Source: Baffinella frigidus (taxonomy: Eukaryota > Cryptophyceae > Cryptomonadales > Baffinellaceae). Taken from it: DNA of 40,335 nt. A model generated the notes under the pieces. The model was not told the origin of the DNA, did not search any database, and was given only the letters and a program-made list of their open reading frames with translations. This document shows, piece after piece, positions 3,600-27,210 of this stretch (positions are counted from its first letter, which is position 1; every line of letters begins with the position of its first letter). Position numbers and translations under genes: made by a program. The DNA lies in the NCBI GenBank assembly GCA_026770585.1, contig MU647038.1, positions 2,065 to 42,399 on the forward strand, given 5' to 3'.

Positions 3600-3702
3600 T
3601 AACTTTACGTAATGTCATCTGAATGACTTTTACGTAATGTCATCTGAGTGACATTACGCAAAGTCATCTGAATGACTTTACGCAAAGTCATCAGAATGAC
3701 TT
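3600..3702. repeat. Palindromic 24-bp array abutting the gene 1 stop codon
   Basis: Four to five units built on GTCATCTGAATGAC with linkers TTTACGCAAA or TTTACGTAAT. Each unit is self-complementary. On the minus strand the array begins right after the TAA of gene 1, so it lies in the 3' untranslated region and would form a row of short RNA hairpins. Confidence 0.75.
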
Positions 3703-6419
3703 ACACAGCAGGAGCCGAAGTCGCGGTGGACGAGACGTCAGCCATCACGTCGAAGAACTGCTTCAAATCGTCGGGGCTGACATGGAACTGCACCTGTTCG
3801 TGGACGGAACAGGCCGTTTAAGAGGGGAAAGAGCCGTGATGGATTGGAAAGAGCCGTTTATACGCTGTTTATGGAGGGGACATCGCCGTTTATGGATGGG
3901 GAAGAGCCGTTTTTGGATGGGAAGGAGCCGAAGAAAACATTGTTTACTGAGGGGACAGCGCTGGTTTTCAAGGCAAAAGCGCCATTGATGGAGGTGAAGG
4001 CACCGTCATGCTCACAGACAAGACGTTTTGGAGACACGCAGCCGTAATATTTTAATTAAAACATTTTAATCAAAAAAAATTAATTAAAATTGTGTACTTG
4101 GCGGGGAAGGTGCACCCAGCAATAATCGTACATCTCAAATTGTGGAGTTTTGGGGGGTTTGGTTCTTGGAGTTTGGATTCTGGGGGTTGGTTATAAGGTT
4201 TAGGGTGCAGGGTTTAGGGTTTACCAGACAATATCAGGATTTAGGGTTTGGGGTTGTAGGGTGTAGGGTGTAGGGTGTAGGGTGTAGGGTGTATAGTTTA
4301 GGGTGCATAGTGTAGGGTTTAGGGTTTGAGGTTTAGGGTCTAGGGTCTAGGGTTTAGGGTTTAGGGCAGGGTTCAACCAACAATATTAGGGTTTGGGGTG
4401 TAGGGGTGTACCCGGCAATAATCGTATATCACAAACTGGAGGGCGATAAGCGCCGCGCCGAAGATCAGCCGCGGTTGCAGCCCCTTCATCACGTCCCCGT
4501 ACCTGGATACGTCAGCGTCGTATATCACACACTGGGATGGTCGTATATCAGAGACGAGAATAGGTGCACGAGTCGTGTATCAAGTCGAAGATCAGCCGCG
4601 GTTGCAGCCCTTCATGACGTCTCGGTACCTGAAGAGTCGTATATCAGAGACGAGAATAGGCATAAGATTCGTATATCAGAGACGAGAATAGGTGTATGAG
4701 TCGTATATCAGAGACTAGAAGAGGTGCAAGAGTCGTATATCAAGTGGAAGATCAGCCGCAGTTGCTCACATCGCCATACCTGAAAGGGCTCTCTGTTTTC
4801 AGGTGTGGGGATCTATCTGTTTCCAAGTACGACCTTCAAACTCTGTTTTCAGTACCCCCTTGTTCATCACGTCGCCTGGATACACAAGAGCCGTATATCG
4901 CGCACTGGGATGATCGTAAGAGTCGTATATCAGCGACGAGAATAGGTGTAAGACTCGTATATCACAAACTGGAGCGCTCATCGCGGCTGCAGCCCGTTTG
5001 GGGGTTTGGGGTTTGGGGTTTGGAGGTTAGGGTTTAGGGCTTGCGGCTTAGTTAACAACCACCAGCCCGCCAGACGCGTGGCCAAATCCTCGATGAGGCT
5101 TTTCCGAATCCAGGCGGGCGTTTCAGCCTTTCAGGGGCTGGGGTTTGGGGTTTGGGGTTTGGGGTTTGGGGTTTGGGGTTTGGGGTTTGGGGGTTGGGCG
5201 AGCACCGCCCAGCTTCCATGTAGCTTGACAGCGCGCCCGAGAGCGTTGATCCCGCCTTCTCGCTTGACTGTGCGGGGTTTGGGGGGTTTAGGGTTTAGGG
5301 TTAAGGGTTTGGGGGTAAGGGTTTGGGGTTTGGGGTTTGTGGTTTAGGGTTCAGGGTCTTGGGTTTGGGGCTTGGGGTTTGGGGTTTAGGGTTTGGGGTT
5401 TAGGGTTTAGGGTTTAGGGTTTAGGGTTTAGGGTTTAGGGTTTAGGGTTTGTAGTTTCGGGTAGGGTTCAGGGTTTAGGGTTTAGGGTTTAGGGTTTAGC
5501 GGACCTTAGAGAAGAAGTAGTCGCCAGGCTGAGAGGTGAATGACGACATCATCCCTGCAAAGCTCCCTGCAAGAAATGTGACGGTTTAGCAAAAGTTGAC
5601 GGTCAATCGCAAAAGTTGATCATTTTTGACCGCCAGGCTGAGAGGTGCATGATGACACCATCCCTGCGAAGCTCCCTGCCCGCGCAAAATGATTTAGCAA
5701 AAGTTGACGATTAAGACGATTTATCAAAAGTTGACGATTCATCTTTCCATGAAAAAGTCGGCGGTTAATCGCTAAAGTTGAGCATTTAGTACCAGCATCG
5801 TCAACTTTGCCACGCGCGTGTGAAGCGTTGAGAAGCCTGGCCGGATCAGGTTCTTTCAAAACCATCATCCCCGCAAAGCTCCCTCGCACGAGCGAGAGCC
5901 TTGCACTCTAATCTCTAAAATATGAACCCTTTACCCTTTACCCTTTACCCTTTACCCTGCATCCTACACCATAAAACCATATACCCTAAAATCTACTGTC
6001 TAAACCCTAAACCCTAAATGGTGTTTCGGGGCATACGAATCAGGGGTCTCTCAGATCGCCAAGGTTTGAACATATTTTGTTTCAGATCACGCCCGAGACG
6101 CCAGTTATTTTCTCAGAATTTTCCTCCGAGGGACGGCCGAGCTCTTCCCAAAACCGGGAAATGGCGCCGCTATCCTCTCCACACAGCGGACTTCGAAGAA
6201 ATTTTGAAGAACCCCTAGGCGATAAGACCTAGGACCCTGCAGTAGGCAACCCGTAGGGAAATAGGGGGGTTCCTACAGATAAGGCAACGGCTAGGTTGCC
6301 AGATCTAGGCCGAAAATCCCTCGTAGCCCGCTGTGTGGGGTCTGCATGTACCGGCGACGAGCGAGACGAGGAGCGCGGACGAGAGGTCGTCCCGCGCGAG
6401 CGGGAACGCCGCGAAGAGG
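3701..6419 (-). CDS. Gene 1 exons 35-40: carrier repeat 3 and C-terminus with stop
   Basis: Exons 6419-6352 ([19 protein letters not shown]), 5566-5501 ([19 protein letters not shown]), 5267-5206 ([17 protein letters not shown]), 5127-5063 ([19 protein letters not shown]), 4502-4412 ([19 protein letters not shown], then [11 protein letters not shown]) and 3793-3701 ([18 protein letters not shown], ending SAPAV-stop). Third signature P838-G-D840; then M-K-G-L-Q-P-R and the final helix ending IYD, all standard for SLC25. The join between the second and third exons keeps frame only with a GC donor (GTCC|GCTAAA); the GT three bases earlier gives another open frame, so this junction is uncertain. 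The AETPAW exon is an insertion relative to ordinary carriers. Stop TAA is at 3703-3701. Confidence 0.82.
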
Positions 6420-9400
6420 CTGCCGGTGGGGGTGAGGGTTTAGGGTTAAGGGTTTAGGGTTCGATGAAACTGTGGAGGGGGGCAGGGGTTAGGGTTTCAG
6501 GTTTAGGGTTTGGTTTTGGGTTTGGGGTCAGGTTTGAGGGTTGAGGGTTGAGGTTTTAGGGTTTAGGGTTTAGAGTTGAGTGTCTCGGGTTTAGAGTGTA
6601 CGGTTTGGAGACGTAAAAATGAAAGCGAGAGCGATATGCACAAACCTCTGTCTGGAGATGTCACACACCGCGAACTTGCACATCACCAACGTCAGGTCCC
6701 CTCCCGAAAACCCGAAACCCGAAAACCCATAAACCCGAAACCCCTAGCCCCAAACCCCGAAACCCGAAACCCTACAATTGTGTTTCGGTATGTCAAACAC
6801 CATGAACCCAAAATCGCAAACGCTCAACCCCTAATCCTAAACCCTGCACCTAACCCTCAACCCCAGGCTCTACACACCTCTGTTTCGAGAGGTCGAACAC
6901 CATGAACCCAAAATCATCAACGCCAAACCCCCAATCCCAAACCGCACACCTCTGCTTGGAGATGTCGAACACCGCGAACTTGCACATCACGAACGTGAGA
7001 TCCTTCAACAGCAGCGGCGCCAGCCCATTAAAGAACCTAGTTTGCGGTTTAGGGTTGAGCGTCTGAAGCTTGCAGTTTGCGGTTTGGGATGAGGGGTTCG
7101 TGGGTAGGGGTTAGGGGTTAGGGGTTAGGGGTTAGGTCTTAGAGTTTGAGATTTGGGGGTTGGGGGGTTAGGACAGCAGCGCCAGCCCGTTGAAGAACCT
7201 AGTTTGGGGTTCAGGGTTTAGGGCTTAGGGTTTAGGGCTTGAGGTTTGGGATAAGGGTATTAGGGGTTGAGGGTTTGAGGTTTGAGGTGTGGGGGTGACG
7301 GTCTAGGGTTTATGGTTGAGGAGTTCAGGATTTGGCGCGTACGGGTTGGGTTCAAGATTGCGGGTTGCGGGTGCAGGTTGGAAGGGTCAGGGTTCAGGGT
7401 TCAGTGTTTCGGAGTTGGGGTTTCGGGGTTGGGTTTTCGAGGTTGGGGTTTAGGTGTTGGGTTTTAGGGTTCAGGGTTTAGAGGTTGGGGTTCAGGGGCT
7501 GGGGTTTGGAGTTCACCCGAGCGCCCCCTCTTCCTCCACATACCGGGTCATCCCTGGTTTAGGGTTTAGGGTTTGGGTTAGGGTTTAGGGTTTAGGGTGT
7601 AGGGTTTCTGGTTCAGGGTTGAGGGTTTAGGGTTTAGGGTTTAGGGTTTGGGGTCCAGGGTTTAGGGTTTGGGGCTTAGGGCTTGGGGGGCGCATGCCTG
7701 CCGCTAGAGAGCCCCCTGCAAAATCCTCGTCCGAGATCATCCGTGTTTTTACCTGGTTCAGGGTTTGTGGTTTAGGGTTTAGGGTTTAAGGTGTAGGGTT
7801 TAGGGTTTAGGGGTTTGGGGGTAAGGGTTAAGGGACAAGGGATTAGGGCTTGGGGTTTAGAGTTCAGGGTTCAGGGTTCAGGGATGAGGGTTTACGGTTT
7901 AGGGGCTAGGGTTTACGGTTCATGATTCAGGATTTAGGGATGAGGGGTTAGGGTTTAGGGTTCAGGGTTTAGGGTTCACGGTTTAGGGATGAGGGTTCAG
8001 GGTTTAGGGTTTAGGGTTTAGGGTTTAGGGTTCAGGATTCAGGGATGAGGGGTTAGGGTTTAGGGTTTAGGGTTTAGGGTTTAGGGTTAACGGTCTAGGG
8101 ATGAGGGTTGAGGGTTTAGGGGTCAGGGTTTACGGTTCAGGATTTAGGGATGAGGGGTTAAGGTTTAGTGTTTAGGGTTTAGGGTTGAGTGTTTGGGGTT
8201 TACGGTCTAGGGATGAGGGTTGAGGGTTGAGGGGTTAGGGTGTACCGCCATGAAGGGGCAGGCAACGATCGTGGCGAAGATCGCTGCTGTGACCGAGCCT
8301 GGTTTCACGTTCAGGGTGTAAGGTTTAGGGTTTAGGGTTGAGGGGTTTGGGTTTGGGGTTTGAGTTCTGGGATTTAGGGTTTAGGGTTTAGTGCTGAGGG
8401 TTTAGGGCTTGGGGTGTAGGGTTAAGGGTTTAGGGTTTAGGGTTTAGGGTTTAGGGTTTTGGGTTGAGGGTTTGGGTTTTTGGGGTGTGAGACCTGCCAC
8501 GACGATCGGGATGGGGTACAGCAGCGTTGCCTGCAATTGGGGTTTAGGGTTTATGGTTTGAGGTTTGGGGCTTGAGGTTTGGAGCTTGAGGTTTGGGGTT
8601 TGGGGTTTGGGGTTTAGGGTTTAGGGTTCAGAGTTTGGGGTTTGGGGTTTAGGGTTTGGGTTTCAGGGTTTAGGGTGTATAGTTTAGGGTTCAGGGTGTA
8701 GGGTTTAGATTTTTAGGGGTTTGAGTTCAGGGTTGAGATTTTATGGTCCAGGGTTCAGGGTTTCGGGTTTCGCGGGGGAAGCGGGTTCGTGGCGAGACAC
8801 TTTCGTATCGATTTCGATGGCAAGCCGAGGTTTGCTTTGGCAGAGCTAGGGGATTGGAACCTTAAACTAACCCCCCAACCCCAGACCCCGCAACCCTCAA
8901 CCCTCAACCCTCAACCCTCAAGTCTAAACTCTGCACCCTAATCCCGAACCCCAACAACTAAAACATGACCTTAGCGCCTGCAAGCTGAGCAAACCAAAAC
9001 CCTAAACCCCAAACCCTGAATCCTAAACCCTACACCCTAAACCCTAAACCTTAAACCCTAAACCCTAAACCCTAAACCCGGGTGTTGGAAATCCTGGAAA
9101 CGCCCAAGGAACCAAACCCTCAACCCCTCAACCCCTCAACCCCTCAACTCCAAACCCTAACCCCTAACTCCAAAGACTAATTTCTTACCCCTAACCCCCA
9201 ACACCTAACCTTCAAAAAAATACCTTAGCGCCTGCGAGCTGAGCGAACCAACGCTTGAAAAACTCCGTCCCGCCCAAGGACCCAAACCCTCAACCCCTCA
9301 ACCCCTCAACGCTTAACGATTAACGCTTACCACATAAGGCTTAAGGCTTAAGGCTTAACGCCTTACGCTTGACGCTTACCTTAGCGCCTGCGAGCTGAGC

Positions 9401-12400
9401 AAACCAACGCTTCAAAAACTCAGTGCCGCCGAACGACCCAACCCCTCAACCCCTCAACCCCAACCGCTTAACGCTCAAAGCTTAACGCTAAACCCTGACC
9501 TTGGCGCCAGCAAGCTGCGCGAACCAACGCTTGAAAAACTCTGTCCCACCCCGACGACCCAAACCCTAAACCCTAACCCCTAAAACCCCACTCCCGGAAC
9601 GCTAAACGCTAAACCCGTACCTTAGCGCCTGCGAGCTGAGCGAACCAACGCTTGAAAAACTCCGTCCCGCCGAACGACACTGCTCCGTACAGCCCGTACC
9701 CGAGTACCTTCAGAGGTTAGGGTTTGGAGTGTGGGGGTTGGGGTTTAGGGGTTGGAGTTTGGGGTTTGAGGTTTAGGGTTTAGGGATAACTCCGTCCCGC
9801 TGAACGAGACGGCTCCGTACAGCCTGTACCCGAATACCTTGCGGGTTTAGGGATTAGGGTTTGGGGTTGAGTGTTGAGGGTTGAGGGTTGAGGGTTTAGG
9901 GGTTAGGGATTAGGGTTTAGGGTTTAGGGTTTAAGGGTTAGGCTCTATGGTATAGGGTGAAGGGCCAAACACAAATCTCTTGATAAGTACCAGAGCATGA
10001 CAGTCCCACACAGCGGACTTCGAAGGGATTTCGAATAACCCTTGAGCGACAAGACCTACGACCCTACCGTAGGCAACCCGTAGGGACATAGGGGGGGTTC
10101 CTACGATAAGGTAATGGAAACTCGGCCCGATTTGGGCCGAAAACCCCTTCGTAGCCCGCTGGGTGGCATTACTCAACTGCTCCTCCGCGGAATCCGCGAG
10201 AAGCAGTTGACTGAACCAGGGAATTGGTCAACTGCCCCTCCGCGGAATCGCAGTATCAGTACGGTTGACTGAACCGGGCAGGGTTTGTACCAGGGCGGTG
10301 ATTAAACCGGGCAGGTCTTGTACCAGTGAATCTGGTTTGAGTCAACTGTTCCTCCCTAAATTAGTACGGTTGACTAAACCAGGCAGGCTTTGTACCACAC
10401 CGGTAACTAAACCGGGCAGAATTAGACCAGGGACTCTGATTTTAGTCAACTGCTCCGCGGAATCGCGTACCTCAGCTTGCAGGCCGCGGAACAGCGCGTC
10501 GAGGCCCCCCTCCTTTGTCAGAACCTGATGTGGAACATCCGTGTCAGTTTGATTCGAAAAAGGTCGAGAACCGAAACGGGCGATTTGGTCGCCCTCTGAG
10601 AGGTTTTGGTGTGCAACGTCCCCCCTACTTTGTCAAACCCTGATGAGGAAAATTCGGTTCAGTTTGATTTGAAACCCCGGTTGGTGGCACGGGGAGGGTT
10701 GTGTGTGCCATCTTAGCCTCTTCTCGGCGCTATGCCAGCCGCACCCCCTACTCCTCAAGTCACCCCCACAAACTTCACTTTTATCTCCTTCTTTCTGGAG
10801 CCGGTTGCGCCTCGTGTGGTGTGCCATCTTAGCCTCCGAAGGCGATTTGGTCGCCCTCTGAGGGTTTGTGGTGGCCCTCCTCCTTTGTCAAAAGCTGATG
10901 AGGACCCCCTCACGTTGTGGGACCGATTCGTGGTAGCGCCGAACATTGATAGCACCGTTACAGACAAACACTATTGGAATCAAGCCGTCCACACATATCA
11001 GACCTTGGACGTTGAGGATTCAGGGGTTAGGGAGGTCACCTTCATAGTAGCGTCGCCAAAGCTGGAGTAGGTGCCCTGAGGCGCGGTCTGCATCCGGATC
11101 TTGACCATGTCCAGCGGAACTAACGCTCCGTGCGCCACTGCAGAGAGGATGGTGTAACGTTTATTGTAAAGCAACTTTGTTCCAGGAGAGCCGCTTCACA
11201 AAGAAAAAACTCACCACCTAAAACTGCAGGAGGTGCTTAGGGTATAGGGTTAAGGGGTCAGGGTTTCAACTGCTTAAGGGTCAGAGTTTAGGTTTTAGGA
11301 ACAAAGCAGGGGGGCGTTCCCGAGAAGCAAATAGCTCCAGAAATGTCAGTGTTTCGAGTTTCTAGTTTCGGGTTCCGGGCTTCAAGTTTCGGTTTTCGGG
11401 TTTCGGAATCAGGGTTTCGGGTTTCGGGATCAGGGTTTCGGGTTTCGGGTTTCGGGTTTCGGGTTGCGGGTGTACCAGACGCGCAAATGGCTCCAGAAGC
11501 AGCGAGTCTCCAGTAGACCCCGAGGTCGAGCGTCTGCTCCCTTTCGGGCGGGCGGGGCCTGGCAGTTTGTTGGTTTTGATTTTGTTTGTTTGTTTGTTTG
11601 TTTGTTTGTTTGTTTGGGTATGGGTTTTGGGTTTTGGGTTTTGGTTCGGGGTTCTGGGGTTCTGGGGTTCTGGGGTTTGGGGGTTTTGAGTTTTGGTTTT
11701 TGGTTTTTGGGTTTGGGGGTTTGGAGTTTAGGGTTGAGGGTTTAGGGTTCAGGGTCTAGGGTGTGGGGTGCACCTGTAGGCGCGTGCGAGGGAGGATGAG
11801 AAAGCTTCTTCTGGCCCGAAAGTGACGTTGTTGCCCAGGAGCGTCCTGCATTTGGGTTTTCGGGTTTGGGGTTTGGGGTTTAAGGTTTAGGGTTTAGGGG
11901 TCTAGCGCCGCATGCTTCGTCAGCGCGGTACTCCAAGGCTGTACAGGTCTAGGGTTTAGGGTTCCGCCGGAGGCTAGTCGCCGCGTGTTACAGGGGCTAC
12001 AGACTGGGAAGGGTGTAAGTTGGGTCGGTAGGGTGTGGGGTCTAGGGGTCTGGGGCTTCTTCTGGCCCAAAGGTGACGTTGTTGCCCAGGAGCGTCCTGC
12101 ATTAGGGTGTTAGGGTTTGGGGTTTGGGGTTTGGAGTTGAGGGTTTAGGGTTTAGGTTTCAGGTTTTAGGGTAGCTGTCAGGGGTTACGGGTTAGGGGGT
12201 CAGACTAGGGTTTGGGGTTTCGGGTTTCGGGTTCCGAGGCACGGGGAGCATACGTCTTGACGAAGCTGAAGCGGCCCTGATCGCTGTCGTAGGCCACCTT
12301 TACCGTGGGCGGCAGCAGCCTGCATCGCAAACACCAATTCAGTCCCGTCACCTGATAGACTGTATCTCCGATTTCGCTTGGCGCTAGAGAAAATACCAGG

Positions 12401-15374: not shown

Positions 15375-15406
<32 letters not shown>

Positions 15407-18057: not shown

Positions 18058-18096
<39 letters not shown>

Positions 18097-18100
18097 GGTA

Positions 18101-18158
<58 letters not shown>

Positions 18159-21100
18159 TGGTTGAGGGTTGAGGGTTGAAGGGTGTATTAAGGCGCAGAG
18201 ACTGTTGTATCACTCAACTTAAGGCTGAAGGGCCTGGACCTGTATCCAGAGAAGTAAAGAATACGAATCAAATTATATGGTTGAGGGGCATCGTGCACGT
18301 ATTTCAGCACGTAGAAACCAACAAAGGAACGATATGGGTGCATACCACACGGTGTACCACGAACCTTTCATCAAATGTCAACTTGCCAAGAGATAATTAA
18401 CGCCAAGGCTTTTCCTATGCAAATTGGTGACGTCAGCCCCTAAAATCCAGCTCCAACAAAACCCTGGTAGTCCACCGTTTGGCATGGCGGCCGTGTCGGT
18501 AATAAATGTCTCTCGCATAGCGGTATCCGTCGGCAGAGCTAGCCACCAACCCGCACCCGGAGGCGAAAACGTCTACAGAATTTAAGACCCGATGCAGGTC
18601 TTATCAGACACACACTTTCGCAACGTTTCACGTCTCCACGGGCCCCCTTTTCGAGATAAAGAAGTAATATTTCGATGTTTTCTGACAATTTCGGATAATA
18701 ATCTCTTTTCTTTATGTGAAAACACGTATCGGTTCACGAAAATGTAGGTGAAAACGTAGACCTTTCGGTGTCCGGGTGCGGCCTCACGGTCGGAGCAAAT
18801 CGTTGAATTTTGTTCACGTCCATCTATTTCCGTCCAAACATCGTAGGGATCCTACGGTAGATAATTGGTAGAGATCCCCTATGCCCCTAAAGAACCGATG
18901 GACTACAAAATAACCGACGTCGGAATCCGACTTCAGCCTGGGGCGATACGTGAGGTAAAATTCGACGATTTGCTCAATCCGTGAGGGCTAGTGGAGACTC
19001 CGGAACTATACCCGTAGGAACCCCCCAATGTCCCTACGGTATTACCTACCGTAGGTGCTATGGTTTAGTATAATCACGAAAACCCTTCGTAGTCCGCTGC
19101 GTGGGGTCTGACCGTTGGACATTTTTAGGGTTTACGGTGTGTGGTTTATGGTTTATGGTTCATGGTTTATTCTTTGTGGTTTGTGGTTCATGGTTCATGG
19201 TTCATGGTTCATGGTTAATGGTTCAGTATAGTCAAGAAATCCCAGTATAGTCAAGAAATCGCTTAGTAGCCCGGTGTGTGGGGTCTGACCGTTGGACATG
19301 ATAGCCTGCGCGGACGGCATCTTCAACTCCTTTCCTTGCTCCTGCGTGGAGCGTGCGTGGTTTCATTTCTCTCATTCTCTCTCTCTCTCTCTCTCTCGCT
19401 CTCTCTCTCTCTCGCTCTCTCTCTCTCGCTGTCTATCACTCTTTCGCTCGCTTTCTCTCTCTCTCAGCTCCTTTCCTTGTTCCTGCGTGTATCGCACGGG
19501 TTTTTATTTCTCTCTTTCTCTATTTCGCCCTCTCGCTCTCGCTCTCGCTCTCTCGCGCTCTCTCACTCGCTCGCTCTCTCCATCTCTCTCTCGCGCGCGA
19601 TCTCTCTCGCTCTCTACATCTCTCTCTCTCTCGCGCGCGCGCTCGCTCTCTCGCTGTCTCTATCTCTCTGAGCTCCTTTCCTTGCTCCTGCGTGTAGCAT
19701 GCGGGGGTTAGGGCTTGGGCTTTAGAGGAGGCCCGCTTTAAGTCTAGCCCTGCCTGCGTTTTATTCAAGCTGGTCCTAAAGGCTTTCAATTCGCCCTTTT
19801 GTACAGGATTGCTGCTCTCCAATGTTTTCAAGGACGCGCGAGAATAAAACTCATGCAGAGCTAGTAAGTGGTACCTGCAGCTGCTTCTGGAGCTGTTCGA
19901 GCAGCGGAAATACCACCACCGGAGATTCTGCGGGTATTTTCGCCAGATATGGCGAGATCCTGCCTGCCTCAAGAATCGTTTTCCATGTCCTACCCCGAGA
20001 ATCGATTTCCAAACCCCCGAGAATCGATTTCGAACTTGGGCGTGGAGTACCAGATTCTAGTACAAATCGTTCGAAGATTCTAGTACAAATCGTTTGGATG
20101 GACTGTATCCGTGAAGCCCTCGGTGGCTGCTAAGTGGTAAGGAAGAAGGTAAGGAAGCAGGACGGACTATTTGAAAAAGCCTCGAGTGGTATGTATGTGT
20201 ATATGTATATGTACATGCATATGCATATGTATATGTATATGTAAATGTATATGTAAATATGTATATGTATATATAAATGTATATGTATATGTAAATGTAA
20301 ATGTATATGTATGTGTATATGTAAATGTACATGCATATGCAGATGCATATGTATATGTAAATGTATATGTAAATGTATATGAGATGCAAGTGGTACCTGC
20401 TGCTGCTTCTGGAGCTGTTCGAGCAGCGGGAATACCACCACCGGCGGCGCAAGGTACCTGGTTTAGAGTTTAGGGTTTAGGGTTTAGGGTTTGGGGTTTG
20501 GGGTTTGGGGTTTGGGGTTTGGGGTTTGGAGGTTGGGATTTGGGGTTTGGGGTTTGGGGTTTAGGGTTTGGGGGTTGGGGTTTAGGGTTCATGATGTAGG
20601 GTTTGGTGTTTGGTGTGTGGGGTTTGGGTTTTGGGGTCAAGGTACCCCTCCCCGCCATCCAGAACCTGGACCATGAGGATCCGCCCCGCGTCCCGCAGCG
20701 TGCACGTCGCTCTGTTGTTCGGGGTTCGGGTTTAGAGGCCACTTACCAGCGAGCGGAGACCTTTTCACCGTGAATGCAAGGTAAAATTCCGGTTAGGCTC
20801 CAGGGCAATGGATAAGATTCTAGTACGAATCGTTTAGATGGACTGTATCCGTGAAGCCTGCCAAGTGGTAGGGTTTAGCACCGTCATCATCGTCAGCACG
20901 CGCGGCAGCAAACCGGCCAACTCTCCGCGAGTGTCCCAAGACAGTGGGATTTATCTCAGAAAACGAGTTCTAAAACTCGTTTTCTTAAGTCAATTCCCCT
21001 ACAAATTTGTCAACTTATGCGGAGAGTAAAGAATAAGTTGACGAATTTGTAGGGGAATTGACTTAAGAAAATGAGTTTTAGAACTCGTTTCCTGAGATAA

Positions 21101-24100
21101 GGATACAGGTCTGCGTTTCGGGCATATGGTTTAGCAAGCCCTGGATATACCCCTTTCGCACATACACATTTGGTACCAGCTCGTACGAATACACTGTACG
21201 TAATACCCCACCCCAGCGTACAATTGAAACACTTTTTGGTACCAGCACGTACTTTTAGGTTGTAAGTAGTACCACAATGTGCTTTAAAACACCATTAAAT
21301 CACTTTTTGACGTTTATCAAGTGGCGGGGGCAACCTGGCCTCGCTGGCTGTTTCGTAGCGTCTTGTAGGCCGGCCGCGTGAGCAAATTCGCACACGCGTT
21401 TCGTACCAGCGCGCACTTTTAGATTGTAAGTAGTGCCACAAAGTGCTTCAGAACACCATTAAATCACTTGTTGACGATTGTTAGGTGTGGGGGGCAACCT
21501 GGCCTCGTTGGCGGTATCGTGGCGTCGCGTCGGCCGTGTGAGGATCGTAACCTCAGGAACCGCCCCCGTGTATCCCGTCCTGGGTTGGAGTTTCGGGGTT
21601 GGGTTTTAAGTTTAGGGTTCAGGGTTCGGGGTTCAGAGTTCAGGGTTTAGGGTTTAAGGTTTAAGGGTTTGGGGTTAAGGGTTTATGGTTTGGCGTTTAG
21701 TTTTTAGGGTTTACTTGTGGGAGCGGGCGAGCGACTGCAAACTAGGTTTAGGGTTTAGGGTTCAGGGTTCAAGGTGTGGGGTTGAGGGTTTAGGATTGAG
21801 GGTTCAGGTTTTAGGGTTTGGGGTTTAGGGTTCGGGTGGAGTTACCCGCGCTGGGAGAGCGTGAGGTTCGTGATGCCCAGGTCGTCGTATGATGCCAGGA
21901 GCCTGGTGTGGGGTTAGTGATTAGGCTTTGGGGCGTAGGGGGTGGGAATTATGGTTCAGGGTTTAGGGTTTAGGGTTTAGGGTGTAGGGTTTAGGGTTTA
22001 GGGTTTAGGGNNNNNNNNNNGGGTTTAGGGTTTAGGGCTCAGGGTTAGGGTTCAGGGTTCAGGGTTCAGGGTTCAGGGTTCAGGGTTCAGGGTTCAGGGT
22101 TCAGGGTTCAGGGTTAGGGTTCAGGGTTCAGAGTTCAGGGTTCAGGGTTCAGGGTTTAGGGACCCCGAAGCTAGTGGCTAATTTGGCTATGCCCTCCACA
22201 GGCTGGTTCTTAGACTATCATCAAGTTGACATGCTGGTTGCGCGGTACAAATTCGTCAACTTTTGAGCGGGGAAAAAAACGGGCTTAGCGCCGAAATAGA
22301 CTGAGTGAGCGCTGGATGGCGGGGAGGGCGTGTCTGGCGATGCCTTCGACAGGCTGCTTCTTTTCGCCCCTTCAGTACGAAATAGCTCCAACGCCAAGCC
22401 AGATCTGGGATATGATATATATGGTGGCGAGGCTGGATCGTGTGGGACGTGCCTGGCAATGCCTTCCACAGGCTGGTTCTTCTCGAGCAGCGAGAAGAGG
22501 AGAGCCAGGTGCATCGCGCTCATGTAGTTGTCCACGTCGCTTTCCCGGTACAAATTCCCGGTACAATCAAGGATTTTTCACCCGAAAAGGATGAAATGGC
22601 TCCTGCTCCAAGCCAAATCTGAGATGGGGTGTATTAGGTGGCGGGACGAGATCGTGTGGGACGTGCCTCGCGATGCCTTCGACAGGCTGGTTCTTCTCCA
22701 AAAGCGAGAACATCAGAGCCAGCTGCATCGCGCCCATGTAGTTGTCCACTTGCCCATACTTCTGACTCAGCGTCCTGTTTGAGGGTTTGGGGTTTGGGGT
22801 TTGGCCACACGTGGGGGCATAGTGTACCGTAGGGTCCTGTGGATGATCCATTGTGGTTTATTCGCGACATCCCTCGAGAGCATCCACACAGCGGACTTCC
22901 AAGGGATCTCGAATCACCCCTAAGCGATAAGACCTAGGACCCTACGGTAGGCAACCCGTAGGGACATAGGGTCGTTCCTACGGACAAGGTAACGGAAACT
23001 CGGGCTATCAGAGCCCGAAAATTCCTTGGAAGCTGTGTGGGAGGCCTGAGCGTCCTGCGCACGTGTTTCGGTTTCAGGCCTCTCAAACCCTAAACCTCTC
23101 GTTTAGGGTTTAGGTTTTAGCGTGTTCGGGTTCTCTCGTTGAGGGTGTGGGGGTTACAGTGTTAGGGGGGGTGTTAGGGGGTGCGGGATTGAGAGAAGAG
23201 GAGAGCTGCATCGCTCACGTGTAGATTCATCTCCATGAAAGTATTAATTTATTGCTTTAAAATTCCTAGAATTTCAGAGTTTTTCCTGAAAAAAAAATCA
23301 AAATTTATCTGCAGTTTTCCACGTCTCTGTACCTCTGGCTCAACTTCCTGATTTAGGCTTTAGGATTGAGGGTGCAGGGGTTAGGGGGTAGGGCTGAGAG
23401 CTTAGGGCTTAGGGTGTGGGGTTTGGGGGGTCGAATTTAGGGCTTGCGGTTTAGGGTTTCGGGTTTCGAGTTTGGAGTTTGGGGTTTGGTGTTGAGGGCT
23501 GAGGGTTTAGGGTTTAGGGCGTGTGCGTTTCGGGGGTGGCTGCATGTTGGGTGTCGTGTTCTACGAATGGGTCGGCAATTCAAAAGTACTCAAGGCTTAA
23601 GGGCCTCATTTAGGTTAGGACCTGTATCGAGAGTAATAAAGAAAAGAAGAAGAAATGATTCAAAAGTGAGGGGTTGAGGGGTTCGGACCTGCAGAGCCGT
23701 TCGGGGCCGTCCGGACCGTCGAAGGACCGAAGCCCGTACTGCACCTGAGTCGTGCGTTTGGGGTTCAGAGGTTGAGCTTTGGGGTGTGTACCACGAGCCA
23801 CAATTTCATCCCGCCTGGTATTTCAATTGAATTCTCGGGAGTTCCCGTCAGATTATGCAGAAGCCAAAAGTCATAACTTCCCCCCACCAGTCGGTGGTTT
23901 TCGAGGGTTTCGGATTTGAATTTGGGGCCGGATTCTGGGGTGTTACGTGACCAAATTTACACCCAGAAAATCCTTCAAGTTAATCATCTCTGGGCAAGCT
24001 GACTTTTGTTGAAAGGTCCGTAGCCCACCGTGTGGGGCAGGTACATACCGCGTATTTCATTTAAATATCCGGCGGGACGAAATTATAGCACGCAACCAGA

Positions 24101-27100
24101 ATTCAACCCGAGACCGCGGGATCACCGAGGTGTACAAGGAGTTTCGGGTTGAATTCTGGTTGCGTGCTATAATTTCATCCCGCCGGGTATTTAAATGAAA
24201 TACACGGTATGTACCTGCCCCACACGGTGGGCTGTCGAGACCAACCGCGGGATCACCGAGGTGTACAAGGAGACGAGAAGTTGGACATTAGTTTAGGGTT
24301 TGAGGTTTTGGGTTCAGGTTTTGAGCTTGAGGGTTGAGGGTTGAGGGTTGTGGGTTGTGGGTTGAGGGATGAGGGTTGAGGGTTTGGGGTTCGGAAATCG
24401 AGGTGTAGAAGGACACCAATTTTGACACGGTTTCAGGGTTTAGGGTTTAGGGTTCAGGGTTCAGGGTTTGGGGTTTGAGGTTTGGGTTGAAGGGGTTCGG
24501 AAACCGAGGTGTAGAAGGACACGAAGGTGGACATGCGGTTCTCCGCCACGTTGGCAGACACCACCTGCAGGTAATTCAAAAGTCAACACGGTAATTCAAA
24601 AGTCAACATCTCGAGACTTTTGGACCACCAGCCATCACAAGAGAACCAGACGGGTTGGAGGTGAGGGATCAACGTTCAGGGTTTATCGCTGGCGAAATTT
24701 AGTAGAGCTGGCATGCCCCGATGTGGTTCTCTTCTGGTGGCTGGTGGCACCATCGCAGCACTCTCTCGCGCTGCCTGACTCGACTTCACAGACTATCCGC
24801 AAGTTGACATCCTGGGTGCGCGGTACAAATCCGTCAACTTTGGAGCGGGAAGAGGCCCGGGCTCACCAAAGTGGTGAGCCCAAATCGACTGAGACAGAGC
24901 TAGTCAAGCGGTTATGACGGACCGCGGAGAGCTCGCGGGGAATTCAAAAGTCAACATCGCGAGACGATCGCCTGCTTTCGAACCCCCGCGCGGGGGAAAA
25001 CCTGGTCCACTTACTGCCTATAACCCGGGAACGGTTTTTGTTGGCGTTACCGAGGAGAGCTCCTCGGAGTTTTTCCAGTAGTTTGCGCTCGGCGTGTCGA
25101 AGTTCAGCAGGAACTTGCCCAGGTATCTGATGTAGGGTTTGGGGGTTAGGTGAAGGGGAAAGGGTAAGGGGTGAGGGGTGAGGGTTTGGGGTTTGTCGAA
25201 GTTCAGCAGGAACTTGCCAAGGCATCTGCGTTCGTGTTTGGGGTGTGGGGTTTGGGGTTAGGGGTTAGGGTTTAGGGCTAGGGTTTGGGGTCTGGGGTCT
25301 GGGGTTGAGCAGGAAATTGCCCAGGTATTTGCGTTGGGGTTTGGGGTTAGGGGTTAGGGTTTGGGGTTTGGGGTTTGGGGGTTGGGGTTTGGGGTTTGGG
25401 GTTTAGGGTTGAGGTTTTGGGGTTCAGGGTGTAGGGGTGAGGGGTTAGGGGACAGGGGTTAGGGGTTAGGGGTTAGGGTTTGTGGTTTGGGGTTTGGGGT
25501 TTAGGGTTTAGGGTTTGGGGTTCAGGGTTCAGGGTTTAGAGTTTGGTGTTTACTCGATGAAGGATTGCGAGTAGGTGCTCTCGGCCTTGTACAGGTTCGC
25601 GTAGCGGTTCTCGCCCCCTTGCGTGATCACCTGGGTAAGGGTTTAGTGTTAAGTGTCATTTTTTAGGAATCATGGTTTATGGTTTATGTTTTATGTTTTT
25701 TTGGTTTAAGGTTTGTAGTTTATGGTTGATGATTCATGGTTCAGGGTTTATGGTTTATGGTTTAGGGTTTGGGTGTAGGGTTCAGGGTTTAGGGTTTAGA
25801 GTTGAAGTTATAGGGTTTAGGTTAAGGGTTTAGGGTTTAGGGTTTAGGGTTTAGGGTTTAGGTCTGGGTTTAGGGTTTGGGGTCAGGGTTTAGGGTCTAG
25901 GTCTGGGTTTAGGGTATAGGTTTTAGGTTTTAGGGTTTAGGGTTTAGGGTTTAGGGTATAGGGTTTAGGGTTTAGGGTTTGGGTTTAAAGTTTAGGGGTG
26001 ACCTGCCGCCAGAGGCTCGTCGAAACCCTAAACCCTAAACCCTAAACCCTAAACCCTAAACCCTAAACCTGCCGCCAGAGGCTCGTCGACGCCGGATCAC
26101 CAGCATTTGCGGGTTTTCCTGGTTCAGGGTTTAGAGTTTGGGGTTTGGGGATTAGGGTTGGGGGTTAGTGTTGAGGGATTAGGGTTTAGGGTTTGGGGAT
26201 CAGGGTTCATGATTTAGGGTTTCGGGTTTGGTGTTTAGGGTTTAGGGTTCAGGGTTTAGGGTTCAGGGTTTTGGGGTTCAGGATTCAGGGATTAGGGAGT
26301 TGGGAATAGGGGACAAGGTTGAGGGTTTAGGGATCAGGAATTACGGTTCAGTGTTGAGGGATTAGGGTCGTCGACCCCGGCTCTCCCGCCCCTGCGGGAT
26401 TTCCCTTGGGAGCGTCCCACTCCGGTAGAGTGATCTGAAATGCTTTCCACCAACCAACCGAATTCAACCAGATCGGGGTGCAGTTGAGCATCTTTTTCCC
26501 CCCAGGACTTGAGGGTGTAGTCTTGGTGAAGTTTACTACAGGTGACATATCCCGATCTGGTACACTTCGAGTGGCTGGTGGTTGTACGTGGACAATGACT
26601 CAACCGCACAGGGTTCTAGGTCCCGGGGGTGCTGGCCATTCTTAACTGACATTCTGGGTCTGTGGTACACATCCGTCAACTTCGGGGTGGAAACAGGCCC
26701 GGTCTCATCAATGTGGGGAGACCAAATCAGACTTGAGACAGAGCCAGGTGTTGGTGCAAGGAACCACGAATTTCACTTCATGTGTTGCAGCTGTGTTGCA
26801 GCTGGCTGACCTGGCACCAGCATCGCCGCCGCCGCCCCTGCGAGCCCGAGCGCCCGCCGTCGGCCGGTGTTCACCCCGCCGTCCCCACCCGCTGAGCGAT
26901 GCTTTCTGCCCTCGGCGACGGCAGGCTTTTGAGGCTTGAGACCGCGCGCGGGTGCCTGGCACTCCTTGCCGGTTCCCTCCGCTGACGGCGGGGATTCGAG
27001 TTCGTCCCTCATCGCCAACTTTCGCCCCACTGCCCGCAGCGCCCCACGCCCGCTTGAGACGCCACGAGCGGCCCCCCAGGCCAGCGATCCGGAGCGATGC

Positions 27101-27210
27101 TGCATGAAACTCGCCCCCCCCGGCACGGCGGGGAGAAACGCGTGAGAGAAACACAGACAGCCCCCGATGATTTGAATGAATAGTGCGGCATTGAAGGAAC
27201 GGACGGCCAT
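3701..27210 (-). CDS. Gene 1: ~40-exon gene, plastid-targeted protein with C-terminal SLC25 phosphate-carrier-like domain
   Basis: Exons, in transcript order: 27210-26811, 26118-26069, 25630-25554, 25126-25051, 24564-24505, 23744-23689, 22774-22667, 21902-21846, 21579-21499, 20711-20646, 20457-20397, 19341-19290, 18045-17989, 17178-17130, 16978-16936, 16346-16314, 16185-16141, 15278-15187, 14477-14425, 14182-14143, 13958-13922, 13498-13461, 12319-12254, 11845-11774, 11558-11476, 11137-11040, 10524-10471, 9707-9621, 8845-8801, 8530-8494, 8298-8246, 7752-7698, 7553-7517, 7036-6950, 6419-6352, 5566-5501, 5267-5206, 5127-5063, 4502-4412, 3793-3701. They sum to 2,850 nt (949 residues plus stop) and each junction keeps phase. 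Domain order: targeting presequence (1-133), unknown domain (~135-290), G-x-G-Y repeats (~290-500), linker, three carrier repeats (~600-915), short tail. Family knowledge: SLC25 proteins move metabolites across inner organelle membranes. A thylakoid or plastid-envelope location is inferred from the presequence only. Introns are telomere-like repeats. The fusion of N-terminal and carrier parts into one transcript is inferred from phase continuity. Confidence 0.72.
3800..3985. repeat. Degenerate GGAAAGAGCCGTTTATGGAT repeat in the last intron of gene 1
   Basis: Six to eight units of about 20-30 bp sharing GAGCCGTTTATGGATGG. It follows the acceptor of the terminal exon. Open frames across it are repeat-encoded. 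Confidence 0.6.
4108..4995 (-). repeat. Array of exon 39 fragments (echoes)
   Basis: Besides the intact exon at 4412-4502, copies of its parts recur: the IYDYC-end with donor side at 4108-4140; repeated TCGTATATCAGAGACGAGAATAGG units at 4525-4740; the YGDV start at 4590-4640 and 4745-4790; and a composite reading GLQPR[13 protein letters not shown] at 4955-5000. Several are frame-broken. The intact exon has the best splice sites. Confidence 0.7.
5575..5890 (-). repeat. Two echoes of exon 36 within AAAGTTGAC-rich spacer
   Basis: At 5630-5685 the minus strand reads [17 protein letters not shown], a close copy of exon 36 with its acceptor side. At 5835-5889 it reads [19 protein letters not shown], a copy that diverges after SFAGMM. 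Between them are about eight repeats around AAAGTTGACGATT. The open frame joining both copies (5889-5620) is therefore an artefact of duplication. Confidence 0.65.
6179..6338 (-). mobile_element. Foldback (MITE-like) element family A, copy 1
   Basis: Ends CCACACAGCGG...CCGCTGTGTGG. Internal GTAGGCAACCCGTAGGGA and CTACAGATAAGG pairs fold back. In sense orientation for gene 1 it begins 13 bases after the exon 35 donor (GCCG|GTACATGCAGACC). Non-autonomous, no coding capacity. Confidence 0.7.
6950..8845 (-). CDS. Gene 1 exons 29-34: carrier repeat 2
   Basis: Exons 8845-8801, 8530-8494, 8298-8246, 7752-7698, 7553-7517 and 7036-6950. Peptides in order: [79 protein letters not shown] and FAVFDISKQ. 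The signature is split across an intron (PFMA|VKTR). The linker EEEGALGFFNGL and the helix [14 protein letters not shown] are diagnostic of phosphate-carrier-type SLC25 proteins, which have RQIPYTMxKFAxFE there. The signature's acidic residue is replaced by Met (P739-F-M741). Exon 32 ends CGGCAG|GCATGC, a GC donor; no GT fits there and the phase-1 join to exon 33 (AG|GG ATG) is exact. Exon 29 (45 nt) is weaker, resting on phase and an AAA|GTGTCT donor. Confidence 0.85.
8869..9606. repeat. Orientation-switched C-rich telomere-like block
   Basis: CCCTAAA, CCCCTCAA and CGCTTAA units, here C-rich on plus, opposite to neighbouring introns of gene 1. Contains four echoes of exon 28 at 8969-8995, 9221-9287, 9379-9440 and 9499-9560. 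Confidence 0.85.
9621..12319 (-). CDS. Gene 1 exons 23-28: linker and carrier repeat 1
   Basis: Exons 12319-12254 ([19 protein letters not shown]), 11845-11774 ([19 protein letters not shown]), 11558-11476 ([18 protein letters not shown]), 11137-11040 ([19 protein letters not shown]), 10524-10471 ([15 protein letters not shown]) and 9707-9621 ([19 protein letters not shown]). The last four make a complete first SLC25 repeat: a small-residue helix, the signature P-L-D-M-V-K-I-R (P at about residue 625), the E-G-x-x-A-L-F-R-G-L linker and the second helix. GYGLYG...TEFFK matches the phosphate-carrier branch, whose members carry G-F-Y-E-x-F-K there. All junctions keep phase (2, 2, 1, 0, 0, 0). 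Confidence 0.85.
10006..10166 (-). mobile_element. Foldback element family A, copy 2
   Basis: CCACACAGCGGACTTCGAAG at the left and CTTCGTAGCCCGCTGGGTGG at the right. The internal TACCGTAGGCAACCCGTAG and the GGCCCGATTTGGGCC palindrome are shared with the other copies. In the intron between exons 27 and 28 of gene 1. Confidence 0.7.
12649..12931 (-). CDS. Open frame inside the gene 1 intron between exons 22 and 23
   Basis: From an ATG at 12931 the frame reads [20 protein letters not shown] (a likely membrane segment), [18 protein letters not shown] and onward to TGI-stop at 12649. Exons 22 and 23 of gene 1 join in phase without it, so it is probably intronic: a nested gene, a transposon remnant or a skipped exon. 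The surrounding intron holds three copies of the exon 22 end. Confidence 0.3.
13461..17178 (-). CDS. Gene 1 exons 14-22: charged linker and further G-x-G-Y unit
   Basis: Exons 17178-17130, 16978-16936, 16346-16314, 16185-16141, 15278-15187, 14477-14425, 14182-14143, 13958-13922 and 13498-13461. Readable peptides are [73 protein letters not shown] and [12 protein letters not shown]. The fifth carries another G-A-G-Y-x-P unit (around residues 458-475). Exons 19-21 are low-complexity, Gly/Lys-rich, and the least certain. Exon 21 uses an acceptor TTGAG|A chosen to hold phase; the alternative GCAG four bases on would shift frame. The acceptor of exon 22 (CAGATCAG|AGC) lies inside a longer open stretch, so the exon may be longer. 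Confidence 0.6.
13560..17130. repeat. Telomere-like blocks with locally uniform variants
   Basis: TTCAGGG dominates 13780-13915; TTTAGGG 14280-14420; TGTAGGG and TGCAGGG 16400-16925. A C-rich patch occurs at 13960-14100. Seven copies of exon 18 parts lie in 14596-15842. Confidence 0.9.
17630..18180. repeat. GGGTCTA and TTGAGGG arrays
   Basis: GGGTCTA-type units at 17640-17780, TGTAGGG at 17800-17890, and about 17 TTGAGGG units, nearly perfect, at 18055-18178. Between them are echoes of exon 13's end with a GTGAGT-type donor (17525-17545, 17600-17625, 17890-17930). 18180-18840 holds no exon I can support. Confidence 0.85.
17989..21902 (-). CDS. Gene 1 exons 8-13: G-x-G-Y repeat region, part 1
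   Basis: Exons 21902-21846, 21579-21499, 20711-20646, 20457-20397, 19341-19290 and 18045-17989. Three units share the pattern 'A-x-A ... I/V-x-V ... G-x-G-Y/I-x-x-x-P-x-V': [19 protein letters not shown] (around residues 290-306), [19 protein letters not shown] (around 335-353) and [15 protein letters not shown] (around 386-400). This resembles the short beta-rich 'GGSGYTSPPTVTF'-type repeats of many secreted or surface proteins. Between the second and third units is a glutamine-rich helix ([17 protein letters not shown]). Junction phases are 2, 2, 2, 0, 1, 1. The 20-nt island at 21720-21743 between exons 8 and 9 would break phase and is left out. Confidence 0.7.
19011..19281 (-). mobile_element. 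Foldback element family A, copies 3 and 4 (partial, tandem)
   Basis: Copy 3 ends at 19104 (TTCGTAGTCCGCTGCGTGG). Copy 4 is a short right end at 19229-19281 (AGTAGCCCGGTGTGTGG). Each is followed by the same bases GGTCTGACCGTTGGACAT, the end and donor of gene 1 exon 12. Element and exon edge were therefore duplicated as one unit. Confidence 0.65.
19371..19672. repeat. CT-rich microsatellite between exon 12 echoes
   Basis: (CT)n with CG interruptions, broken at 19471-19500 and 19669-19700 by copies of the start of gene 1 exon 12 (EQGKEL on the minus strand) with its ACGCAG acceptor. Serine/leucine frames across it are not genes. Confidence 0.85.
20188..20388. repeat. ATGTAT/ATGTAA microsatellite
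   Basis: About 200 bp of six-base ATGTAT-type units between exon 11 (20397-20457) and its echo at 19870-19935. Tyrosine/isoleucine frames are repeat-encoded. Confidence 0.9.
20951..21100. repeat. 68-bp inverted repeat (hairpin) with 14-bp loop
   Basis: Left arm 20951-21018 starts TTATCTCAGAAAACGAG; right arm 21033-21100 ends CTCGTTTCCTGAGATAA. About three mismatches. Each arm contains a smaller palindrome (ACGAGTTCTAAAACTCGT). In the gene 1 intron between exons 9 and 10. Confidence 0.88.
21940..22160. repeat. TTTAGGG and TTCAGGG arrays around an assembly gap
   Basis: TTTAGGG units before the ten-base gap at 22011-22020 and after it, then a nearly uniform TTCAGGG run from 22040 to 22160. The gap lies inside the intron between exons 7 and 8, so its true length is unknown. 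Confidence 0.9.
22453..22539 (-). CDS. Gene 1 exon 7b: in-frame duplicate of exon 7, candidate alternative exon
   Basis: Encodes [20 protein letters not shown] then NQPVEGIA, against [19 protein letters not shown] in exon 7. It has an acceptor GGGAAAG|C, phase 2 at both ends, a length of 87 nt (divisible by three) and the same GC-type end (GCCAG|GCACGT). It could replace exon 7 or follow it without changing frame. It lacks the first seven codons of exon 7. A third, diverged copy of the 3' half is at 22300-22365 and the short end again at 22176-22205. Confidence 0.45.
22667..26118 (-). CDS. Gene 1 exons 2-7: unrecognised domain after the presequence
   Basis: Six exons: 26118-26069, 25630-25554, 25126-25051, 24564-24505, 23744-23689 and 22774-22667. 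Typical peptides are [66 protein letters not shown] and [19 protein letters not shown]. They read as one mostly helical soluble domain of about 150 residues. I do not recognise the family. Junction phases run 1, 0, 2, 0, 0, 2. Exon 2's donor is GTTTAGGG, itself a repeat unit. Exon 3's donor is GTAAACAC. Exon 7 fits exon 8 only if its donor is GC (CGAG|GCACGT). The GT four bases further on breaks phase. Each exon except exons 3 and 6 has nearby partial copies. Confidence 0.7.
22884..23040. mobile_element. Foldback element family A, copy 5
   Basis: CCACACAGCGGACTTCCAAG to CCTTGGAAGCTGTGTGG, with internal GACCTAGGACCCTACGGTAG and AACCCGTAGGGACATAGGG. In the gene 1 intron between exons 6 and 7. 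Confidence 0.75.
23890..24036. mobile_element. Foldback element family C, copy 2
   Basis: Contains CCCAGAAAATCCTTCAAGTT and TGTTGAAAGGTCCGTAGCCC, ending ACCGTGTGG. Its right end overlaps the left arm of the 90-bp inverted repeat at 24022-24233. Confidence 0.55.
24022..24233. repeat. Near-perfect 90-bp inverted repeat with 32-bp spacer
   Basis: Left arm 24022-24111, right arm 24144-24233, with only a few mismatches. The spacer (24112-24143) holds a 29-bp piece of gene 1 coding sequence (CCTTGTACACCTCGGTGATC on the minus strand), repeated just outside the right arm at 24245-24273. The piece resembles the end of exon 5. Confidence 0.85.
24628..24748. mobile_element. Foldback element family D, copy 1
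   Basis: Inverted ends CCACCAGCCATCACAAGAGA and TCTCTTCTGGTGGCTGGTGG. In the gene 1 intron between exons 4 and 5. Followed by a family B copy at 24794-24905. Confidence 0.65.
25230..26360. repeat. Telomere-like blocks around gene 1 exons 2 and 3
   Basis: TTTGGGG, TTTAGGG and TTTATGG units. At 26027-26067 the orientation flips to CCCTAAA on plus immediately next to exon 2, giving exon 2 a GTTTAGGG donor. Echoes of exon 4 lie at 25197-25232 and 25305-25337 and of exon 2 at 25984-26012 and 26365-26400. Confidence 0.9.
26438..26583. mobile_element. Foldback element family D, copy 2
   Basis: CCACCAACCAACCGAATTCA on the left and CGAGTGGCTGGTGG on the right, with GATCGGGGTGCA and TATCCCGATCTGG pairing inside. 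Lies between exons 1 and 2 of gene 1. Confidence 0.55.
26811..27210 (-). CDS. Gene 1 exon 1: tripartite plastid/thylakoid targeting presequence
   Basis: ATG at 27210 sits in a good start context (GCAGG before ATGG). Residues 1-24 form a signal peptide (hydrophobic core [13 protein letters not shown]) ending at SHA, followed by F25-L-P, the 'AF' motif of secondary red plastids. Residues 25-115 are rich in R, S, G and A with few acids until about residue 68, as in a transit peptide. Residues 117-119 are RRR, followed by the hydrophobic stretch [13 protein letters not shown], which resembles a twin-arginine thylakoid signal. The donor at 26810 (CCAG|GTCAGC) splits the Gly-134 codon. Exon 2 completes it and gives [11 protein letters not shown], where ANA|G could be a lumenal cleavage site. 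Without splicing the frame runs to a stop at 26773. RRR plus the hydrophobic run could instead be a simple membrane anchor. Confidence 0.8.

Follow-up and report, generated by a model that had tools for sequence, protein, structure and literature searches.

A many-exon SLC25-type gene set among telomere-like blocks in an alga, and the probable formation of introns by telomere-repeat insertion and local duplication

How new spliceosomal introns arise is an old question, and among their active sources the transposon-like introners are best known. The locus described here bears on that question, as short minus-strand islands are separated by blocks of telomere-like sequence within the window (the whole stretch of DNA analysed, 40,335 nt, from an assembly whose 1364 contigs total 382,457,362 bases). 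Do the islands form a gene, and how did telomere-like sequence come to lie between them? Our reading, which we consider likely, is that this is a nuclear SLC25-type gene of ~37 exons and that the insertion of telomere repeats into genes, together with local duplication, forms introns.

Minus-strand islands between telomere-like blocks were joined at GT/GC-AG borders, and the joined model has 37 exons that run from 27210 to 3701 on the minus strand, an interval that takes in the stop codon, in one frame of 913 codons. Exon 1 measures 400 nt and the internal exons 33-108 nt (median exon 62 nt), with introns of 128-1244 nt (median 589 nt). The borders comprise 34 GT and 2 GC donors and 36 AG acceptors, a tally that is partly circular, as the sites were chosen by the model. 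This model revises an 865-aa draft under the guidance of homologues, which brought in exons 2 and 9 and shifted five borders. Two other constructions did not stand. One joined the third carrier repeat through GC donors in a phosphate-carrier frame and was dropped when the homologues gave another frame, and a codon-usage gene model made without homologues took in decoy exons from partial copies and was mended by hand and by alignment.

The 865-aa draft was searched against 5.8 billion proteins, from which the 7996 candidates with the most words in common with it were scored, and five of these matched it (P0001-P0005). P0001 and P0002, from JGI contigs, share 40-41% identity over 84-88% of the draft, and P0003, from the transcriptome of Guillardia theta (Cryptophyceae), shares 46% identity over 72% (E 1.9e-147); P0004 (27% over 71%) and P0005 (24% over 21%) are weaker matches. 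No near-identical protein was found among the scored candidates, 46% being the best identity. A second search with the alignment of P0001-P0004 (7993 candidates scored) gave two shorter relatives, P0006 of 533 aa and P0007 of 400 aa, and viral contigs searched for protein relatives yielded nothing usable. The best match of the draft in the PDB is uncoupling protein 1 (9.8e-11). A structure prediction of the homologue P0001 from 4 sequences reached a mean pLDDT of 38 and was set aside.

In the joined protein, Pfam places Mito_carr (PF00153) in three stretches (1.5e-32), the three-repeat organisation of an SLC25 carrier. Each repeat of this family carries the signature P-x-[DE]-x-x-[KR]. Here the signature prolines lie at residues 627, 726 and 825. 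The repeat 1 signature, PLDMVKIR, is canonical, and the second and third are degenerate, with M replacing D/E in repeat 2 and no K/R at position 6 in repeat 3. The same degenerate forms occur in P0001 and P0002, and P0003 diverges ahead of the third signature in the alignment. The original prediction had foreseen the SLC25 match, now found in Pfam and in near full-length homologues, and the interval 3701..27210, whose ends are those of the joined model with its stop codon. Its many-exon, single minus-strand frame also holds, but the counts of 40 exons and 950 codons do not; its exon size of 33-108 nt suits the internal exons but not exon 1, and its three signatures occur in the order given but not with prolines at 625, 739 and 838.

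By eye, the ~600 N-terminal residues begin hydrophobic and continue with a Phe-led and then a twin-arginine stretch; the RR of the latter is the same in all 4 aligned proteins. Features of plastid and thylakoid targeting include a signal peptide, a transit peptide starting with Phe and a twin-arginine signal. The leader suggests a plastid, perhaps thylakoid, location, and from its sequence the protein would presumably function in transport as a carrier. Together with the 46% identity to the Guillardia theta protein, the leader makes a photosynthetic cryptophyte the most likely host. The three Mito_carr stretches and the canonical first signature are what it shares with the SLC25 family (PF00153), whereas the degenerate signatures 2 and 3 and the extra N-terminal residues with their plastid-type leader set it apart. 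Plastid or thylakoid SLC25 members of plants include TAAC and PAPST.

Support for the gene that is independent of exon joining comes from tblastn of P0001-P0003 against the raw window, which gave 65 HSPs on the minus strand and 0 on the plus strand (E<=1), a split that argues against a chance assembly. While 46 of the 65 fall on model exons, 19 lie off the model, and 17 of these 19 overlap partial exon copies. Also off the model, the HSP at 15834-15769 falls on the part of P0003 that exon 18 also matches, and the one at 18197-18078 is chance-like. The matches of P0001 and P0003 follow gene order except at exon copies and the chance-like HSP, and 18 of the 37 exons are matched singly, the other 19 not being so matched. 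The best homologue spans 25 of the 36 junctions ungapped (±6 residues); J1 and J31 contain solely columns gapped in both sequences, and the remaining nine (J11, J13-16, J18, J19, J23 and J35) fall where homologues are gapped and conservation is poor, so that their splice sites are less certain. J20 is ungapped, yet has 3 identities in 13. Taken together, sequence comparison supports a many-exon SLC25-type gene set between telomere-like blocks, and the 37-exon model would presumably be spliced in vivo.

All exons below lie on the minus strand and belong to the joined model. Exon 1 (26811..27210) holds the signal peptide-like start, the Phe-led transit-like stretch and the twin-arginine motif recognised by eye, and exon 2 (26069..26118) is placed by the 4-sequence alignment and the junction alignment. 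The junction alignment also covers exons 3 (25554..25630), 5 (24505..24564), 8 (21846..21902), 21 (13461..13541), 28 (8494..8530) and 31 (7517..7553). Both the junction alignment and tblastn agree with exons 4 (25051..25126), 6 (23689..23744), 7 (22667..22774, GC donor), 9 (21499..21579), 10 (20646..20711), 22 (12254..12319), 26 (10471..10524), 27 (9621..9707), 29 (8246..8298, start of the second signature, PFMA|VKTR), 30 (7698..7752, GC donor), 32 (6950..7036), 33 (6352..6419), 34 (5505..5566, third signature, QPGDYFFSK), 36 (4412..4502) and 37 (3701..3793, with the stop codon). The carrier domain starts in exon 24 (11476..11558), seen by Pfam and tblastn, and the first signature lies in exon 25 (11040..11137), matched by tblastn.

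The weakly supported junctions are the 3′ ones of exons 11 (20397..20457), 13 (17989..18045), 18 (15187..15278, also matched by tblastn), 23 (11774..11845) and 35 (5206..5267) and the 5′ ones of exons 12 (19290..19341) and 17 (16141..16185), all seven exons being covered by the junction alignment. Both junctions are so classed for exons 14 (17130..17178), 15 (16936..16978), 16 (16314..16346) and 19 (14425..14477), as is exon 20 (14143..14182) as a whole; these five come from the joined model.

What fills the introns was measured by counting sequence within one mismatch of CCCTAAA as telomere-like, termed sense-C where the C-rich strand lies in sense and sense-G where the G-rich strand does. 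Intron bases of the SLC25-type gene are 35.2% sense-C vs 6.2% sense-G, compared with 1.3% and 1.0% of exon bases and with 8.5-10.4% and 1.4-1.8% in five composition shuffles. Sense-C exceeds sense-G in 32 of the 36 introns (the exceptions are introns 21, 27, 32 and 33) and makes up ~30% or more in 24 of them. Introns 19, 29 and 34 are nearly all array (0.94-0.95 of bases); intron 29 (7753..8245, minus strand), for example, is 95% CCCTAAA-like in sense orientation and ends in aaccag. Introns 4, 11, 21 and 33 have at most 4% sense-C, and thus non-telomere-like sequence forms introns too. Sense-G makes up 11-36% of introns 2, 20, 26, 27, 32 and 33, and at exons 2, 27 and 32 the G-oriented sequence sits between the exon and its copy. 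The blocks had been described as looking like telomeric junk, which undersells repeats that are strand-biased, favour one 3′ register and recur beside other genes.

Other repeats accompany these arrays. TATGTA and TC-rich tandem repeats (20190-20381 and 19323-19669) lie mostly in intron 11, so introns are also filled by non-telomeric repeats. A variant heptamer array, AGGGTGC/AGGGTGT, occupies 16545-16924, suggesting that arrays expand once formed, and 28 perfect copies of AACCCCC at 36263-36458 form a homogenised telomere-like variant. A dispersed element of ~160 bp (..CCCTACGGGTTGCC..) occurs at 6179-6338, 10005-10170, 19013-19105, 22884-23003 and 32646-32794, in both orientations and with the other copies 73-88% identical to that at 10005; it may represent a short, non-autonomous transposon. 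Another dispersed element, at most ~130 bp long, lies at 1549-1680, 22223-22266, 24801-24903, 26647-26727, 32963-32993, 36686-36767, 36844-36947 and 36993-37029, its other copies being 71-89% identical to the first (1549-1680).

CCCTAAA-like arrays stand at internal sites across the window, as interstitial telomeric sequences do, with TTTAGGG as the putative telomere repeat of this alga. The outer 70 bases at either end of 9 large contigs showed no clean terminal TTTAGGG telomere, and one of these ends closes in CCCTAAA repeats of the wrong orientation. A blind genome sample of 15 stretches (12,472 readable bases out of 60,000) is 15.3% telomere-like vs 8.7% in one shuffle, a sample too small to lean on.

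The same arrangement recurs at other genes. Divergent from the SLC25-type gene, a DUF1824 gene (PF08854, Pfam 1.9e-11) lies on the plus strand at 34478..39772, with telomere-like sequence between its exons, which are modelled from codon usage at 34478-34550, 35768-35869 or 36067-36155, 37517-37617, 38641-38711 and 39635-39772; the two options reflect a near-copy of exon 35768-35869 at 36067-36155. Between the modelled exons, 15.8% of bases are C-oriented vs 4.7% G-oriented on the plus strand, and the strand bias thus tracks gene direction in the minus-strand SLC25-type gene and the plus-strand DUF1824 gene. Of 45 kinesin matches in the rest of the genome, 30 were taken as loci; these are spread over 18 contigs, and overlapping ones were merged. 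Sense-C outweighs sense-G on 15 of the 18 contigs (one-sided sign test, 0.004), with 10,757 vs 3,304 bases in total; the contigs without the bias are C138, C657 and C391. Contig C506 (L030 and L037) carries two copies of a kinesin exon a few hundred bases or less from each other, and the flanks upstream of them contain telomere-like sequence.

The arrays also meet the splice sites in a preferred phase. An intron was taken as array-ended if at least 8 of the 12 bases directly ahead of AG match the repeat, and 16 of 19 such introns share one 3′ register, CTAAACC|AG. Three registers place C before AG; were these three equally likely, finding 16 of 18 cases in a single one would have a probability of 1.7e-6. 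Counted without gene models, AGG after arrays is in the CTAAACC register in 16 of 32 cases in the window and in 30 of 75 in 139,772 other genome bases (30 of 44 when the count is limited to C-ending registers). AAACCCT|AGG forms a further peak (20 of 75 in the other loci), which looks like a simple repeat variant without an obvious tie to splicing. Viral contigs searched for the array-acceptor pattern yielded nothing usable. At position -4, before CAG/AAG/TAG, C is present in 12 of 19 array-ended introns vs 3 of 17 others, in which G is commonest (9 of 17), so CCAG is no general splicing preference here. At the 5′ end, G|TAAACCC is the commonest register, although it is not fixed (8 of 17). 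AG is found 1.8 times per 100 bases in the last 60 before the acceptor, vs 4.4 in introns overall and 6.1 in exons. Rather than the chemistry of insertion, common ancestry or a spliceosome that prefers such ends could lie behind the favoured 3′ register.

Copies of exons lie in the same introns. By blastn, 16 of the 37 exons have 37 partial sense copies, all of them in an adjacent intron and none distant; the same blastn gave 6 antisense matches, of which 5 are distant and 1 (exon 21) is in the adjacent intron. The exon copies are 86-100% identical, a spread that suggests different ages. Exon 27 and its five partial copies span 8970..9833 on the minus strand (copies at 9833-9788, 9547-9504, 9437-9380, 9274-9224 and 8997-8970), with telomere-like sequence between them. 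Adjoining exon 2, a telomeric insertion (26001..26066, minus strand) consists of 43 nt of perfect TTTAGGG repeat in sense, opposite in orientation to the rest of intron 2, with the 23 bp exon end repeated after it. This is the layout that would be expected of a telomere-repeat insertion with target-site duplication, an event described at primate and rodent loci (PMC2246262).

A wider scan looked for exact non-telomeric direct repeats of at least 12 nt in the 80-nt flanks of arrays, in the window and at the other loci. It recovered the exon 2 insertion, and found flanking direct repeats at 26 of 263 arrays (12 of 95 from the window and 14 of 168 from elsewhere); 200 reshufflings of the flanks gave 1.6 arrays on average and never more than 5. 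As tandem duplication of an array-bearing segment leaves the same trace, the direct repeats support insertion and do not prove it.

We propose that telomere repeats repeatedly enter genes, probably during the repair of double-strand breaks, and that bases at the break may at times be duplicated in the process. With its C-rich strand in sense, an array would then be close to a ready intron, providing a GTAAAC-like donor after G and a pyrimidine-rich CTAAACCAG acceptor before AG|G. The perfect C-rich repeat contains no GT or AG, and this orientation would be tolerated, whereas the opposite one would be selected against and purged because GT and AG occur in every unit. Local tandem duplication would subsequently scatter dead partial exon copies across the introns, and later duplication and drift would blur the arrays. 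Insertion would thus be the origin of the introns, with telomerase or break repair as its agent and selection as the cause of the strand bias. A stronger form of the proposal, which we regard as doubtful, is that telomerase or telomere-repeat capture at breaks is a main source of new introns in this alga, C-rich sense arrays being spliceable at once. If true, repair inside exons would be harmless and introns would accumulate, and the 3′ register would mark the start of repeat addition and the variable 5′ register the point at which end-joining sealed the break.

The same observations may be read in other ways. Ancient, ordinary introns may have served as safe havens in which repeats were inserted or expanded later, with antisense arrays removed by selection because they add false splice sites. 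This is a serious candidate, if short of an even chance: the same gene has introns with few telomere-like bases, duplication inside existing introns can yield both exon copies and arrays, and selection alone accounts for the strand bias. However, arrays reach the acceptor in a single phase, an arrangement not predicted if intron interiors were filled later, and introns 19, 29 and 34 are almost wholly array. The phase, in turn, would suit an introner-like mobile element whose body is telomere-like, whose end is CTAAACCAG and which spreads as introns, as would the direct repeats near some arrays. We judge such an element improbable, since intron length ranges from 128 to 1244 nt, the 5′ register varies, and by eye neither a common non-telomeric body nor terminal inverted repeats were noticed.

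That the locus is exon debris amid repeats, a pseudogene or an assembly artefact with no working gene, would fit the many partial exon copies and the difficulty of assembling tandem arrays. Against it, 913 codons remain open over 37 exons whose splice sites, as picked by the model, are intact, the homologues, one of them transcript-derived, are conserved across 25 of 36 junctions, and kinesin exons on other contigs also have telomere-like flanks; we consider it very improbable. Insertion of telomere repeats with local duplication is the reading we carry forward.

Interstitial telomeric repeats and introners are each already known. Interstitial telomeric sequences described at double-strand breaks in primates and rodents are short internal arrays, sometimes with target-site duplication (PMC2246262), a pattern that the exon 2 insertion fits; in this alga, arrays instead account for a large share of many introns and show a strand and register bias. 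Introner elements likewise involve a repeated intron-making sequence in many genes with direct repeats at its borders, but those of Amoebophrya end in inverted repeats, and none were noticed by eye in the introns of the alga (PMC7789003, PMC11453091). Introns bordered by direct repeats are similar in having repeats near splice sites, which are read as marks of insertion after a break; telomeric content is not mentioned in the abstract of that study (PMC11782384). Among the titles and abstract openings listed in searches of the open-licence literature, no description was found of introns built of telomere repeats with a strand and register rule.

It is plausible that gene finders would overlook the SLC25-type gene; that the scored candidates include no near-identical protein agrees with this without proving it. 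Masking telomere-like repeats ahead of gene prediction would strip the splice-site context from such genes. More broadly, the locus suggests that stray telomere repeats can turn into introns. Were a genome to form introns from telomere-like arrays, following a strand rule and favouring one junction, it would provide a second source of new introns, one that is repair-based and directly testable.
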